Notes under the pieces: model-generated
What the model was told of the DNA's origin: nothing
Database searches by the model: none
What the model saw: only the letters and a program-made list of their open reading frames with translations
Program-made: the position numbers and the translations under genes
In this document: piece by piece, positions 16,812-24,974 of the stretch
Layout of the letters: every line of letters starts with the position of its first letter
How positions within the stretch are numbered: position 1 is the first letter of the stretch
Source of the DNA: Phycisphaerales bacterium
GTDB taxonomy: Bacteria > Planctomycetota > Phycisphaerae > Phycisphaerales > SM1A02
NCBI GenBank assembly: GCA_009691915.1
Contig: SIAD01000001.1
Location: forward strand, 310,001 to 374,000
Direction of reading: 5' to 3'
Length of the DNA stretch: 64,000 nucleotides

Positions 16812-16840
16812 AGTGTACCGATGGGTACGGGTGCTACGCT
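16812..16840. promoter_or_regulatory. Divergent pair of start-proximal -10 elements
   Basis: On the minus strand TACACT (16812-16817) lies 6 bases before the ATG at 16805. On the plus strand TACGCT (16835-16840) lies 8 bases before the GTG at 16849. Both spacings would put transcription starts at or next to the start codons. No convincing -35 element accompanies either. This is inferred from position and similarity to TAnnnT only. Confidence 0.5.
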
Positions 16841-16848
16841 CGAATACC

Positions 16849-17823
16849 GTGACGACCGCTGGCTCCATGCCGCCATCCATCATTGAACCGTCGCCGGGTG
16901 ATGCGGCGTCGGCGCTGGCGGCGGTGTTCGGGGGATCGTCCGAGCGGGCCCGGCGATTCGCGCGGCTTGGTCGAAGTGATTGCCACCACCTGCTGTTCGC
17001 CATGGACCCGATGGGTGGTGCCTTTGCCAACGCCGCGATCCTGAGCCGCTATCCGGGAAGAACAGCGATGCTCCTGGTAACGAGCCCGCGCACGGAGGAC
17101 GACTTTTCGCACGGCGCGGCGCTCGTGGCCCATGGACTCGCGCGAGCGAGCGAAATGGGTGCCTGGGTCGTGCAGGCACTCGTCGAACCCATGCGTACGC
17201 GGGAGCGTGCGATGTTTGAGAAGGGCGGCATGCGCACGATCGGAACGCTGGCCTACCTCGAATTGCAGCACCCGCAGGCCTGCGCGCGCACTCCGCGGGC
17301 TCGTGACCCACGAGTGACCATTCGCCCGTGGTCACCCTCGGAGCGAACATTGCTCGAAGGCCTGCTCGAAGAGACCTACATCGACTCGCTCGACTGTCCG
17401 GGGCTATCGTCGATGCGGCCGACCTCGGACATCCTCGATGGCCACATGCAGACTGGCAAACTCGATCCTCAACGCTGGCTCATCCTTGAGATCGATGGAG
17501 TTCCATCGGGTATCTCCTTGATGAGCGAGATCCCATCGAGTCAGCGCCTTGAGATCGTGTACTTCGGGCTTGCACGGCGCGCTCGCGGTCGGGGGCTCGC
17601 GGGTCATCTGCTTGATTCCACGCTTGCTCTGGCGGATGGCTCGCCTGTGACGCTGGCCTGCGACGAAGGCAACGCGCCCGCCATCCGGCTGTACCAGTCA
17701 CGCGCGTTTTGTGTGCGGCTCCGGCGTACCGCGATGGTCGCCCCCGCAGGTTGCATAGTGGCGGAAGCGATTCCCACGGGTTATCCACTCGGTGCGAATC
17801 GCGGTGCACCGACTTCTGCGTGA
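16849..17823 (+). CDS. GNAT-family acetyltransferase
   Basis: This 324-residue protein appears to contain two GNAT-like halves. The N-terminal half contains FEKGGMRTIGTLAYLEL. The C-terminal half contains IVYFGLARRARGRGLAGHLL, a good acetyl-CoA pyrophosphate-binding motif (R/QxxGxG/A), and NAPAIRLYQSRAF. The GTG at 16849 is chosen because TACGCT precedes it by 8 bases; ATG 16867 is the alternative. The substrate is unknown. Near its 3' end a CGGTGC/GCACCG stem followed by a T-rich stretch may act as a terminator, and TTATCCACT (17781-17789) resembles a DnaA box. Confidence 0.75.
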   Translation: MTTAGSMPPSIIEPSPGDAASALAAVFGGSSERARRFARLGRSDCHHLLFAMDPMGGAFANAAILSRYPGRTAMLLVTSPRTEDDFSHGAALVAHGLARASEMGAWVVQALVEPMRTRERAMFEKGGMRTIGTLAYLELQHPQACARTPRARDPRVTIRPWSPSERTLLEGLLEETYIDSLDCPGLSSMRPTSDILDGHMQTGKLDPQRWLILEIDGVPSGISLMSEIPSSQRLEIVYFGLARRARGRGLAGHLLDSTLALADGSPVTLACDEGNAPAIRLYQSRAFCVRLRRTAMVAPAGCIVAEAIPTGYPLGANRGAPTSA

Positions 17824-18095
17824 AATTTTTCTTCGTCGCCAACTGCCGCTGAATCAGGCGCATACGGTGAGGAAGTGTGAACGCCGCGTGCGCGTCAGAA
17901 AAAGGGGCTGTTGACCACGTACCTTTCCGCATGTCGCGCGGCATGGACGCGTCGCGATACGGAGTCCACCCGTCCCTCGGCATACTGCTGCGCGGGAGAC
18001 CCCGATCGTGAAGGGACTCGCCACCAGATGATGATTCTCTGTGGGATCGAACGCTCCGACAACGGGCGCGGGCGGTCGCCTTGGAAGGGCCCTCG

Positions 18096-19544
18096 ATGCC
18101 GACCGCGACACAAGATCATGCAGCACAGACGGTTCAGAGAACAACACCCCTCAGGGCCTTCGCCGTGGGGCTGAGCAGCACGATCGGACCACGCAAGTAC
18201 CAGATGTGGTTCGGCTCAGAGACGCGTTTCAGCTACTCCGAGGGCGCTGTGCGCGTGGAGCCGCCGAGCGTGTTTGCCGGCCAGTGGATTGCGCAACACT
18301 ACTCGGAGCAACTCGCTGCAACCGCGAAGAGCGTGTTCGGCGAGGAGTGCACAGTAGAAATCGTTGCGGTGACTGTTCCGATCCCGACCGAGCCAGCGAC
18401 CCAACCACACCCTGGCGCCCGCGAGACCCCCACACCGGCACTCCGCGCCCGTATGGAGAGAACTGGAGCGAGGGCACACGACCACATCGACGGACCATGG
18501 CGTTCCTTCGCGGACTTCATCGTCGGAGACTCGAACCGTCTGGCATTTGAGAGCGCACGCCAGATGGCCGAATCAGACAGTCTGTCGACAAAGCTCCTGT
18601 TCCTTCATGGATCCTGCGGGGTCGGCAAGACCCATCTCCTTCAGGCGCTCTGTCGGAGGATCCGCGAGAGGCGGCCGGGCGCGAGAGTGCGCTACTCGAC
18701 CGCTGAACAGTTCACCAACGAGTACATCGCCGCAGTCCGAGAAGGCACCATCGACAGCTATCGCAAACGGATGCGGCGCGTCGAACTCCTCGTCATCGAC
18801 GATGTCCACTTCTTCGCCAAGAAGACTGCGACGCAATCGGAGTTCCTGCACACCATCGATGCCATAGGGTATTGCGGATCGCGGGTGGTCCTCGCATCCG
18901 ACGCCCATCCCCGTGAGATCGCCAAGCTGAGTGCCCCACTGGTGAGCCGGTTTCTGGCCGGAATGGTTGTCCATGTCGCCGATCCAGACCGTGTAACGCG
19001 GCGGGCGCTTGCCTGCGCCTTTGCCGCGAGGCGTCTCCTTGATCTCAGCGACGATGCACTCGATCTCCTCGTCGATCGCGCGGGGGGAACTGCCCGCGAG
19101 ATCGAGGGAGCAATCATGACCGTCGCGGCACTGAGCGCCCTGGAACCAGGGAGTGGCCCGGGCAGTCGTCTTGTCGTCGAGCGCTCCCTCGGGCGTCGGG
19201 CGATCGGCCCCACCGGACGGCCTGTCCGGGTGGGAGAGATAATGGATGCCGTCTGCGCAACAACCGGGGTCGAGCGAGAGGATCTGGTGGGGCCGGGCAG
19301 GCATCGGCGCGTGGTCACGGCCCGGGGACTTGCCGCGCATCTCGCGCGCGAGATGACCACGCACTCCTTCCCGGAGATCGCTGCGGCGCTGGGTCGTTCT
19401 ACGCACTCGACGGTCCACGCTGCGGCCGCCAGGTTCCGGACGATGATCGACCACGATGAACCGTGCGCGACGAGGGATGAGATTGTCGGCGCGCCGGACC
19501 TTGTGGAGCGCGTGCGCCGCGAGATCCTTCGAGCGCGCGCGTGA
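18096..19544 (+). CDS. dnaA: Chromosomal replication initiator protein DnaA
   Basis: DnaA melts the origin and loads the replicative helicase. The 482-residue protein has domain I (about 18-90), a proline-rich linker (91-130) and the AAA+ domain with Walker A GSCGVGKT (172-179) and Walker B LLVIDDVHFF. Sensor and arginine-finger regions follow, then the DNA-binding domain IV with the signature ALGRSTHSTVHAAAARF. I start at ATG 18096; a TTG 15 bases upstream is also in frame. dnaN, gyrB and rpmH are not adjacent (rpmH is at 56.5 kb). The 272 bases upstream hold no gene and no clear cluster of DnaA boxes. Confidence 0.95.
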   Translation: MPTATQDHAAQTVQRTTPLRAFAVGLSSTIGPRKYQMWFGSETRFSYSEGAVRVEPPSVFAGQWIAQHYSEQLAATAKSVFGEECTVEIVAVTVPIPTEPATQPHPGARETPTPALRARMERTGARAHDHIDGPWRSFADFIVGDSNRLAFESARQMAESDSLSTKLLFLHGSCGVGKTHLLQALCRRIRERRPGARVRYSTAEQFTNEYIAAVREGTIDSYRKRMRRVELLVIDDVHFFAKKTATQSEFLHTIDAIGYCGSRVVLASDAHPREIAKLSAPLVSRFLAGMVVHVADPDRVTRRALACAFAARRLLDLSDDALDLLVDRAGGTAREIEGAIMTVAALSALEPGSGPGSRLVVERSLGRRAIGPTGRPVRVGEIMDAVCATTGVEREDLVGPGRHRRVVTARGLAAHLAREMTTHSFPEIAAALGRSTHSTVHAAAARFRTMIDHDEPCATRDEIVGAPDLVERVRREILRARA

Positions 19545-19578
19545 CGCCCGCTCCCGCGTCCCCGTTACACTTCGGAGT

Positions 19579-21117
19579 GTGCCCCACGCGCCGCGTTCGA
19601 TCACACGACGACCCCTGTGGCGAGCTGGTTTCCGCGCAGCCTTGGTGGCCACGGCGGCCATCGCCGTCGTCCTGAACAGTTCGCAGGCCCAGTCGACGAG
19701 AACCGACCACTTCGACGGGGCCGTGTCCACGCTGCAACGCTGCGTGATTCCAACTGACACGCGCGAGCACCATGCGCTCATCGTGTCGCTGCGGGCTCTT
19801 AGAGATCCCGCCCTCCAACCATTCTTCGAGGAGTTGACTCGGTCGACAAACTGGAGTTCGCGCGTCGACGGCATCCTTGGTCTTGCGGAACTTTCGAAGA
19901 CCAGAGACATCGACCCGCACCTTGTGGAACGGCTGGCGTCGGCTGAGGATCGGTCGACTGCGATCCGCAACGCCGTCGGATTCCGGCTCCTGTCTCCCGC
20001 GTCAATCCGTCAACTGCTTCGATTGCCCGACTGGCCAGCGCTCGACCTGGTCGTTCTCAACGCCGAGCTGCACCGTCAGGGGGAGAAGGTCGACGAGGCC
20101 GTGCTGAAGGTGACCGCCTCTGACCCATCAGACGAGATTGCGGCACTTGCCTGCGCGCTGCTCATCTCCGGCGACGGCGAGGAGTCATGGAACGCGTTCG
20201 AGGCCCGCCTCGCGAGGCGCACCCCCGAAGTGCGCAATCTCGTCCTGCAGGAGATGGCAAAGGCGATCCTTCTCTACGAGATCGAGGAGGCCGTCGTGCC
20301 GATGTTGCGACTGGTCGCTGACGACGCGTACACCACGGCAACTCGCATGATGGCCAACGGATCCGCGCTGGCACTCGCCCCTGCGGCCGGCCAGGAGGCG
20401 TGGAAGCGCCTCGCCCAGAGTGAGCGGGCGCAGACGGCACTGGTGCGAGCCGGACTGCAGCTGATGTCCCAGACCAAGCCAATCGAACCCGGCCTCGCGT
20501 CAGCGATCCGAAATGGAGAGCCGCTGGTCGAGGCGATCGCCGATGCCATCGAGGCAAATGCGTCGGGCGATCAGGAGGCTCTGGCCGCGGCACTGATGGT
20601 AGTCATCGACCGCGGAAATCGTCAGAGTGCGGAGTGGGCTGTGCAGCGCGCCGCGGCCCTTCCCAGCGTGCTTGGAGTGCGCGTATGGCGACACCTGCTT
20701 GACCGATTCCTGACAGCACCCGACAACTCGCTGGCTCTGGGCGCGGTCGTAGTCGATGCCGCTCGGCGGCTGGCACTCGCTGATCCACCAATCGTCGAGT
20801 CGCTCATCCGGGGCGCGGCACGCGAACCACAGGTGCAGGAGATTCTGGTGCTGGCACTATGCGATGCGGCGAGCCCGGAGGCAGCGAAGGTGGCGCGCTC
20901 GGTGCGAGGGTCGTTTACACGGCGCGGGGATTCACTCGCCATTCTGGCTATCGCACGGGGTGAACCGACGATCGACCCCGAGACACTCCGTGAGCTGGGG
21001 ATCATCGGCGCGGGCGGAGGTGATCTCGATCCGACGCTGCTGGTGCAGGCCGCGTGGCTCTTTGCTCGTCACAGCGGCCGCGCCGATCAGGCCTTGGCGC
21101 GAGTCAATCCCCAATGA
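19579..21117 (+). CDS. Secreted helical-repeat protein of unknown function
   Basis: The 512-residue product starts with a basic segment and a membrane-spanning or signal segment (FRAALVATAAIAVVL, cleavage near SQAQ). It continues as an almost entirely helical protein with irregular HEAT/TPR-like repeats. I do not recognise the family. I start at GTG 19579, because TACACT precedes it by 7 bases; the frame is open further upstream but lies inside dnaA. Its stop overlaps the start of the DegT-like gene (ATGA), suggesting co-expression. The large secreted repeat protein at 22448 has a similar composition. Confidence 0.7.
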   Translation: MPHAPRSITRRPLWRAGFRAALVATAAIAVVLNSSQAQSTRTDHFDGAVSTLQRCVIPTDTREHHALIVSLRALRDPALQPFFEELTRSTNWSSRVDGILGLAELSKTRDIDPHLVERLASAEDRSTAIRNAVGFRLLSPASIRQLLRLPDWPALDLVVLNAELHRQGEKVDEAVLKVTASDPSDEIAALACALLISGDGEESWNAFEARLARRTPEVRNLVLQEMAKAILLYEIEEAVVPMLRLVADDAYTTATRMMANGSALALAPAAGQEAWKRLAQSERAQTALVRAGLQLMSQTKPIEPGLASAIRNGEPLVEAIADAIEANASGDQEALAAALMVVIDRGNRQSAEWAVQRAAALPSVLGVRVWRHLLDRFLTAPDNSLALGAVVVDAARRLALADPPIVESLIRGAAREPQVQEILVLALCDAASPEAAKVARSVRGSFTRRGDSLAILAIARGEPTIDPETLRELGIIGAGGGDLDPTLLVQAAWLFARHSGRADQALARVNPQ

Positions 21118-22283
21118 AGTTTGACATTCCCCTGAGCCGTCCCGATGTCACGGAGGAGGACCGCCAGGCTGTTCTCAGGACTCTCCAAGGAACACCACTG
21201 TCGATGGGGACGGCCCTCAGCGAACTGGAGGCGACGCTCGCCGCAACTGTCCATCGCACCTACGGGATCGGAGTTACCAGTTCCGGAACGGGGTTGGAGA
21301 TCGCCCTGCGCGCACTCGGCATCGGCCCGCGCAGCGAGGTCCTGGTCCCTGCCCTCTCGTATTCGTCGAATGTGAATGCCGTGATCGCCGTAGGCGCGAC
21401 TCCGATCTTTGTCGATTGCGACCCGCGTAGCCTGAACATGCGGATCGTCGATGCGGAAGCGCGCATCACTCCCCAGACGCGCGCGATCATCGGCGTGCCA
21501 ATCCTCGGCAATCCGACCGGACTCCCGGAACTCATCGCGCTCTGTTCTCGGTATGAAGTCCCAATGATCGAGCACGCCTCGGAGGGTCTCGGCTCGACAA
21601 TTGGCGATGACAATGTCGGACGGTTCGGCCGACTCAGCGTGTTTGGATTCGGACCCAACCGTCCAATCGGCTGCGGCGAAGGAGGCGCGATCGTCACCAA
21701 TGACGATCGGCTCATGGCCGCGTGCCGTGCCTTGCGAACGCAGGGGCGAGTCGACCGACAGAGTTTCGCTGGGCAACCGATGGACCTTGGCATGCTCATG
21801 GAGTTCTCAGGATTCGGGCTCGACGCGCGCCTGGCGGAGCCACTTGCGGCACTGGCGTTGAGCCAACTCAAGAGACTCGACTCGATCCGCGACGCACGCA
21901 ACGAGGTCGCCAATGAGTACATCCGCCGCCTCGCGGGTCACCCGTCGCTCATCCTGCCCACCATCCCCGAGAACGCACGGATCTGCTGGCCCCTCTTCTG
22001 GGTACGACTAAGCGACCGATTCGGCCCCGAGGATCGAGACGCGGTCATCGCTGGATTGCATCGGCACGACATCGGTGCCGCGAATCACTACCCCCCGGCG
22101 CATCTGCTGCCGCATGTGCGTGCCGCATTCGGCACGAAAGAGGGGGATTTCCCCGCCGCCGAGTCAATCGGTGATCGAATGGTGTCTCTACCCATGTTTG
22201 CCTCGATGCAGCTTCGTGAAGTCGCCACGGTCTGCCAGGCACTCGATGTCATTCTCTGCGGGCTTGGACACGCCCGGGCCTGA
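21114..22283 (+). CDS. DegT/DnrJ/EryC1-family protein lacking PLP ligands
   Basis: The 389-residue protein is full length for the DegT aminotransferase family, which normally makes amino sugars using PLP. It has IPLSRPDVTEED at the start and VTSSGTGLEIALRALGIG and ATPIFVDCDP further on. Three key positions differ. The Lys forming the Schiff base is Arg183 (in FGPNRPIGCGEGG). The Asp that holds the pyridine nitrogen is His154 (in IEHASEGLG). The Ser contacting the phosphate five residues before the Lys is Gly178. It is therefore unlikely to be an ordinary aminotransferase. It could be a binding or scaffold protein, or a PLP-independent enzyme. It overlaps the upstream secreted-protein gene by four bases. 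Confidence 0.85.
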   Translation: MKFDIPLSRPDVTEEDRQAVLRTLQGTPLSMGTALSELEATLAATVHRTYGIGVTSSGTGLEIALRALGIGPRSEVLVPALSYSSNVNAVIAVGATPIFVDCDPRSLNMRIVDAEARITPQTRAIIGVPILGNPTGLPELIALCSRYEVPMIEHASEGLGSTIGDDNVGRFGRLSVFGFGPNRPIGCGEGGAIVTNDDRLMAACRALRTQGRVDRQSFAGQPMDLGMLMEFSGFGLDARLAEPLAALALSQLKRLDSIRDARNEVANEYIRRLAGHPSLILPTIPENARICWPLFWVRLSDRFGPEDRDAVIAGLHRHDIGAANHYPPAHLLPHVRAAFGTKEGDFPAAESIGDRMVSLPMFASMQLREVATVCQALDVILCGLGHARA

Positions 22284-24829: not shown

Positions 24830-24974
24830 TTGAAGCTGCTCCTATTTGATCGAAGTCTGCGCCCTTGGCACGGGCGGTGGATAGACGGGGAAAAGTATCG
24901 CACTCGCGCCATGATTGCAATTGATGGAGCGACATGGGTGGTGGTAGAGTCATGGGCGTGATTGCCCCCCGCCA

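Follow-up and report, generated by a model that had tools for sequence, protein, structure and literature searches.

The window analysed here is a stretch of 64,000 nucleotides from a Phycisphaerales bacterium (GTDB family SM1A02; GenBank assembly GCA_009691915.1, contig SIAD01000001.1, positions 310,001 to 374,000 of the forward strand; all coordinates below are those of the window). It carries a gene for a protein of the DegT/DnrJ/EryC1/StrS fold in which contacts to the cofactor pyridoxal 5'-phosphate (PLP), including the Schiff-base lysine, are replaced. The gene order is GNAT acetyltransferase, second DnaA paralogue (dnaA2), helical-repeat protein and DegT protein, followed by a convergent HEAT-repeat gene, a gene at 24962 and a pilin-like gene, and it was kept in 13 loci as far as the contigs reach. 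The open reading frame of the DegT gene starts with ATG at 21114 and ends with a stop codon at 22281-22283, and its frame and coordinates were confirmed; its start is overlapped by the last four bases (ATGA) of the helical-repeat gene. The features are listed in Table 1.

Table 1. Genes of the dnaA2 cluster and positions of interest in the DegT-fold protein.
Feature	Position	Strand	Basis
GNAT acetyltransferase, conserved upstream neighbour	16813..17823	+	Pfam, synteny
Second DnaA paralogue (dnaA2), upstream gene of conserved cluster	18081..19544	+	Pfam, synteny
Helical-repeat protein, N-terminal hydrophobic stretch; longest open reading frame, true start probably further in	19456..21117	+	Synteny, model
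DegT/DnrJ/EryC1/StrS-fold protein lacking the PLP site, 389 amino acids	21114..22283	+	PF01041 match, AlphaFold2 model, VIA-align
Codon 58, GGA (Gly); Thr in 29/29 intact relatives	21285..21287	+	Alignment and codons
Codon 154, CAC (His), at the Asp position	21573..21575	+	ArnB alignment, clade counts, codons
Residues 163-173, conserved more in the Arg183 clade than in intact relatives	21600..21632	+	One-per-genus comparison
Codon 178, GGA (Gly), at the phosphate Ser position; ancestral, outside the loss	21645..21647	+	Clade counts, codons
Codon 183, CGT (Arg), at the Schiff-base Lys position	21660..21662	+	ArnB and intact-orthologue alignments, codons
Residues 213-233, conserved more in the Arg183 clade; low confidence in the monomer model	21750..21812	+	AlphaFold2, one-per-genus comparison
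Codon 237, GAC (Asp); Asn in 29/29 intact relatives	21822..21824	+	Counts, codons; spacing as Asn239 of Pcryo_0638
Residues 301-334; their DRDxxIxGLxRHDI stretch persists in orthologues that are otherwise strongly eroded	22014..22115	+	Orthologue alignments
HEAT-repeat protein (PF13646), 793 amino acids	22448-24829	convergent	Pfam

The encoded protein matched PF01041 (DegT_DnrJ_EryC1) with an E value of 5e-88 and 296.2 bits against a curated cut-off of 19.8, over positions 2-359 of the 360 of the profile. None of the nine NCBIfam sugar-transaminase models matched (PseC, ArnB, WecE and others) reached its curated cut-off, the best being PseC with 244.3 versus 423.5 bits. By homology and predicted fold the protein is a member of PF01041, and judged from its residues it fails the cofactor features that define the enzymes of this family.

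In the sugar aminotransferases Pcryo_0638, PglE and DesI (PMC8040287), the strictly conserved contacts are Thr60, Asp156, Ser180, Lys185 and Asn239. The spacing of these residues in Pcryo_0638 (96, 24, 5 and 54) is identical to that of positions 58, 154, 178, 183 and 237 of the window protein, which are Gly, His, Gly, Arg and Asp, so that all five differ from the described contacts. For the DegT-type enzyme Spr1654, another report (PMC5936713) describes Lys199 as binding PLP, Asp170 at N1, His173 at O3', and Ser194 and Thr59 as binding the phosphate. The alignment with ArnB (1mdo) had one single-residue gap between positions 154 and 183, in the low 170s, with matching motifs on both sides, and no gap was found in the 154-183 region between an intact orthologue and the window protein. 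Both alignments agree with an earlier note on this DNA, which had assigned Arg183 to the Schiff-base Lys, His154 to the Asp of the pyridine nitrogen and Gly178 to the phosphate-binding Ser, and the codons that it called unambiguous (CGT, CAC and GGA) are indeed found at 21660, 21573 and 21645. Its list of contacts was incomplete, since the replacements of Thr58 by Gly and Asn237 by Asp had been overlooked. Position 237 was taken as the Asn contact, which belongs to a GxNxR motif, because the intact orthologues have Asn237 and the spacing of Pcryo_0638 agrees; it is marked as less certain, the ungapped ArnB alignment setting the Asn of ArnB opposite Arg239. The only lysines of the window protein are at positions 2, 253 and 342.

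A scan of genome contigs yielded 17 loci, 13 of which were orthologues with 65-81% identity. Arg183 and Gly178 were present in all 13, and for this reason the replacements are not attributable to sequencing error; position 154 was His in 12 and Asn in one. Counts for the window clade as a whole were made over 32 distinct sequences, nine duplicates having been dropped, and were compared with 29 relatives with an intact site, which had been selected by Lys183 and Asn237 and came from 22 family genera and seven order- or class-level stretches. Arg183, Asp237, Gly178, Glu157 and Arg239 were each found in 32/32 clade members. Position 154 was His in 21 and Asn in 11, never Asp, and position 58 was Gly in 20, Ala in seven and Ser in five, never Thr. 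All 29 intact relatives had Thr58 and Asp154, while position 178 was Gly in 24, Ala in four and Ser in one of them. As Gly178 was already present in most intact relatives, it predates the loss, which comprises Thr58, Asp154, Lys183 and Asn237, and a change from Ser178 to Gly as part of it was rejected. The earlier description of three replaced contacts thus holds for Asp and Lys but not for Ser, and the sharing of Arg, His and Gly among orthologues that it proposed to check was found for Arg183 and Gly178, His154 being confined to 21 of the 32. The intact DegT proteins that other genera, within the family and the order, encode at the dnaA2 locus are about 40-51% identical to the window protein and have Glu157, Arg239 and usually Gly178 in common with it, but differ in all four lost contacts.

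Outside the family, the best 23 of 141 matching genomes provided further order- and class-level sequences (L026-L048; genomes partly shared with the set of 29), in which Lys183, Asn237 and Thr58 were present in 23/23 and Asp154 in 22/23. The order-level relative L044 (G066) has Val at 154 despite Lys183 and Asn237; its gene is otherwise intact-looking and is an exception to a clean rule that the site is intact outside the clade. In 16 sequences of divergent clades, position 183 was Ser in ten, Asp in two, Arg in two, Glu in one and Gly in one, and Asp154 was kept in seven. No Lys was found among the invariant columns of a 14-sequence alignment, and across the wider clade only columns 2 (17/32) and 9 (24/32) were Lys in at least half of the rows; another active-site lysine, which the earlier note had named as a result that would speak against it, is not conserved in the clade. 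Five metagenome-assembled genomes titled 'Singulisphaera sp. GP187' (L005, L008, L009, L010 and L012) had loci like those of records titled Phycisphaerales, and their titles may be wrong.

ColD and E1 are dehydratases of the DegT fold that depend on pyridoxamine 5'-phosphate (PMP); they have His at the Lys site and keep the other PLP/PMP contacts. Structures of ColD and E1 were among the matches of the window protein, E1 also in the VIA-align listing, and a PMP enzyme of this kind would not need the Schiff-base Lys. The window protein shares with them the absence of this residue; in the clade, however, the replacement is Arg and not His, and Asp154, Thr58 and Asn237 are each absent in 32/32. 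Because of these differences we do not consider the protein ColD-like, and this explanation is very unlikely.

The ratio of nonsynonymous to synonymous substitutions (dN/dS) was calculated by the Nei-Gojobori method for the six closest pairs within the genus, separately for each gene. Values of 0.037-0.062 were obtained for the DegT gene, 0.082-0.121 for the DnaA gene and 0.11-0.148 for the helical-repeat gene, of which one pair covered just 104 codons; the DegT gene is under strong purifying selection. The AlphaFold2 model had a predicted local distance difference test score (pLDDT) of 89.1 and a predicted template modelling score (pTM) of 0.88, with low values only at 212-217 and 222-233. 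Foldseek ranked ArnB first, with a template modelling (TM) score of 0.87 by query and 32% identity, and VIA-align gave Z 50.0 and 2.0 Å over 365 residues to GDP-perosamine synthase (3bn1_A) and Z 48.0 to ArnB (4oca). The fold is common to the ArnB, GDP-perosamine synthase and PseC-type aminotransferases of PF01041 over nearly the full length (Z 47.8-50.0), the Lys, Asp, Thr and Asn contacts of these enzymes being replaced in the window protein. According to the model, the fold-type I sugar-aminotransferase fold is kept, as the earlier note had said of the rest of the fold. A decaying gene or an assembly artefact without function could be suspected from the strongly eroded versions in some sister genera, but no internal stops were present in the matching genomes, 18 of the 19 in the genus, the contig of the 19th (G212) ending inside the gene; together with the low dN/dS and the replacements fixed in 32/32, this makes decay extremely improbable, and the selection result already contradicts it. 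Loss of the gene in G212 was also rejected, owing to this contig end.

The conservation of the protein was compared using one sequence per genus, with eight genera of the window clade against eight intact genera in 200 draws. The overall likeness was lower among the window-clade genera (0.540) than among the intact ones (mean 0.675, minimum 0.620 in the 200 draws). Residues 163-173 (0.68 versus a median of 0.55) and 213-233 (0.51 versus 0.36) were conserved more in the clade, both outside the 5-95% range of the draws; residues 196-212, 234-246 and 301-334 were about equal, and the stretch 63-90 was conserved less in the clade. A wider new conservation had been suggested by block entropies under uneven sampling and was not supported by this comparison, in which only 163-173 and 213-233 exceeded the intact genera. 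The new conservation of these two stretches despite the lower overall likeness indicates that constraint has shifted and that the gene is not simply decaying. In Spr1654 (PMC5936713), the region matching about 219-232, counted from the Lys, is a flexible loop; it becomes ordered when a ligand binds and extends to the substrate in the adjacent subunit.

Five His lie within 19 residues (316, 318, 325, 330 and 334) at 22059-22115, all five being present in 26/32 clade members, and the change from Arg316 to His is fixed in 32/32. From the sequence, this cluster is a possible metal site. The protein might be a PLP-independent enzyme, in which His or Asn154, Arg183, Glu157, Asp237 and nearby His would act on a nucleotide sugar or another ligand with a phosphate group, through acid-base or metal-assisted chemistry. 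The invariance of Arg183, Asp237, Glu157 and Arg239, the fixed His316, the new conservation in 163-173 and 213-233 and the frequent co-occurrence of the five His are in line with such an activity, and members with His325-Tyr326 resemble, by motif only, the substrate-cavity His-Tyr/Phe pair conserved in sugar aminotransferases (PMC5936713). Nevertheless, position 154 switches between His and Asn even within genus g176, the His cluster is not common to all genera of the clade and the sister clades dispense with the pocket, so we regard an enzyme of this kind as unlikely.

To describe the distribution of the loss, one or few representatives of each of 44 genera of the family were surveyed. The class-wide search matched 151/198 genomes at E ≤ 1e-60 and the family-wide search 160/181 genomes at E ≤ 1e-45, with no match for genus g174. 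Asp154, Lys183 and Asn237 were intact in 22/44 genera. Lys was lost in 21/44 (g1, g2, g3, g5, g6, g7, g9, g10, g151, g153, g154, g155, g164, g169, g176-g180, g183 and g184), and g150 kept Lys together with Ser237 and Gly157. The DnaA gene of the window was found in the stretches from the representatives of all surveyed genera apart from g150, where only the helical-repeat gene was present, and g172, which had none of the conserved neighbours, the cluster around dnaA2 being conserved through most of the family; outside it, DnaA was near the DegT gene in 3/6 order-level stretches (L054, L057 and L059) and in 0/1 at class level. The DegT gene of the window is the positional orthologue of intact DegT genes, with the same locus in intact and PLP-less genera, and since the orthologous gene has an intact PLP site in 22 genera of the family, the loss took place at the locus itself, inside a single orthologous lineage. 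In g5 and g179, which had the most eroded orthologues observed, the pocket motifs are missing and a WSRxIVRLD..DRDEIIxGMxRHDI-like stretch is retained. Loss of the gene in these two genera was considered and rejected, as a divergent orthologue was present at the locus in three g5 and two g179 genomes.

The DegT tree was computed from 64 rows after masking of five trait columns; it puts the window protein in a separate clade of 15 rows (support 100/99) within a 32-row lysine-less group (87/59), with g150, which keeps Lys, as sister. Genus g153 stands apart beside an intact genus, and the topology requires a minimum of two changes. In a second tree, built from the DnaA and GNAT neighbours by a quick search over 58 rows, the lysine-less genera fell in three places, namely a 30-row clade (Shimodaira-Hasegawa-like approximate likelihood ratio test 95), g153 and g180, the last grouping with the intact g181 and g175 (support 100). 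A single lysine-less clade was rejected on the neighbour tree by the approximately unbiased test (p-AU 0.0135), and the DegT tree constrained to join g180 with g181 and g175 was not rejected (p-AU 0.088). On balance, two or three independent lysine losses are favoured by these sequence trees. In g153 (L114 and L115), Asp154 is kept, with Lys183 changed to Ala or Thr and Asn237 to Gly or Ser; this separate loss lies beside the intact g182 on both trees.

Among the neighbouring genes, dnaA2 matched PF00308 with 155 bits, a better-matching DnaA (216.2 bits) being encoded on contig C10. No Pfam match was found for the helical-repeat protein, which in most aligned rows has an N-terminal hydrophobic stretch and was modelled as an all-helical repeat (pLDDT 84.6); it is apparently exported, to judge from its sequence.

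If the protein paired with an active DegT enzyme as the silent or regulatory half of a heterodimer, it would be comparable in principle to SPTLC1, the pseudo-subunit of serine palmitoyltransferase, which has lost the catalytic Lys and is a heterodimer partner. Pseudo-subunits of this type are also fold-type I proteins that have lost the Lys and keep the fold under selection, in a different subfamily. The DegT enzymes form dimers whose active sites lie where the subunits meet (PMC5936713), and candidate partners exist in the genus, where the 30 aligned loci consisted of 8 PLP-less and 22 other DegT paralogues (21 distinct genes), all of the latter with Asp154 and Lys183. On the other hand, the conserved neighbourhood showed no intact DegT in 13 close loci and the family representatives, and for G208 (92% complete) and G209 (85% complete), two out of 19 genomes in the genus, the matches listed contained no full-length DegT other than the PLP-less protein. 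These two are incomplete metagenome-assembled genomes with room left for another DegT, but their lack of a further listed full-length protein makes an obligate heterodimer improbable, and we give the subunit explanation little credit.

The reading that we hold to be moderately probable is that the window gene encodes a pseudo-aminotransferase, a PLP-free binding protein of the DegT fold that is neither an aminotransferase nor ColD-like. The lack of the Schiff-base Lys and of the Asp for the pyridine nitrogen, with altered phosphate contacts, suggests that it most likely works without PLP, and we infer from these residues that it does not bind this cofactor. The earlier proposal of a non-PLP function under selection is supported by the shared replacements, the separate clade, the lack of a conserved Lys and the low dN/dS. 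The protein is probably a dimer, because the DegT fold is kept, and presumably cytoplasmic. Its role in the cytoplasm may be that of a binding protein or a scaffold, and it would be expressed from the conserved cluster that also encodes the second DnaA and the putatively exported helical-repeat protein. Most likely, the PLP-intact ancestor at the locus already had a PLP-independent role; this would explain how the lineage could give up the chemistry, probably on more than one occasion, and still keep the gene in its place. The persistence of the gene and of its C-terminal motif in g5 and g179, which are without active-site motifs, favours this reading. In the window clade, the emptied pocket (Arg183, His/Asn154, Glu157, Asp237, Arg239 and the newly conserved 213-233 loop) may have adapted to another ligand, as the fixed new pocket residues and the newly conserved substrate loop suggest a ligand of its own. 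A more specific form is tentative and rather doubtful: the DegT protein of the dnaA2 cluster would have a conserved PLP-independent function, possibly tied to the DnaA or helical-repeat protein, PLP being a dispensable extra dropped by about three lineages and the pocket of the window clade being rebuilt as a new binding or catalytic site.

Several results weigh against this interpretation of a pseudo-aminotransferase with a repeatedly lost and rebuilt site. On the DegT tree two losses suffice, and a single lysine-less clade is not rejected (p-AU 0.312), for which reason repeated loss depends on the neighbour tree, a quick one with long branches. The cofactor-site stretches are conserved less in the clade than in the intact genera (51-62, 0.52 versus 0.72; 148-162, 0.60 versus 0.82; 174-195, 0.60 versus 0.86); such weaker conservation is expected on loss of PLP, and there is no sign of a tightly held new site in these stretches. 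Ser58, present in 5/32 clade members, could still bind phosphate. ArnB has Lys in column 237 and its Asn two residues further, so a contact at position 237 is not universal. A similar degree of constraint was measured for the pilin-like gene, which lies outside the cluster (dN/dS 0.023-0.059). Finally, in G324 (g179; L164) dnaA2 is followed by Obg with no DegT gene on the 7.8-kb contig, a rearranged locus and an exception to the fixed place.

No description of lysine-less Planctomycetes DegT proteins or of DegT pseudoenzymes was found in the literature searched, judged by titles and listings. PLP fold-type I pseudoenzymes are known mainly as silent partners of active subunits. Here, the versions of one orthologous locus grade from an intact aminotransferase to a fully eroded protein, with the fixed Arg/His/Asp pocket in between, while the gene and, in most cases, its position persist, which allows one to ask what the aminotransferase fold does besides transamination. 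In roughly half of the family's genera, the label 'aminotransferase' on the PF01041 member at this locus is probably wrong. The conserved gene cluster with the second DnaA also deserves note. Should the tentative reading with about three independent losses and a rebuilt pocket hold, the DegT superfamily would gain a new branch that does not use PLP. The HEAT-repeat gene beside the cluster was detected only in the genus of the window and in a few close genera (g184, g176, g177 and g9).

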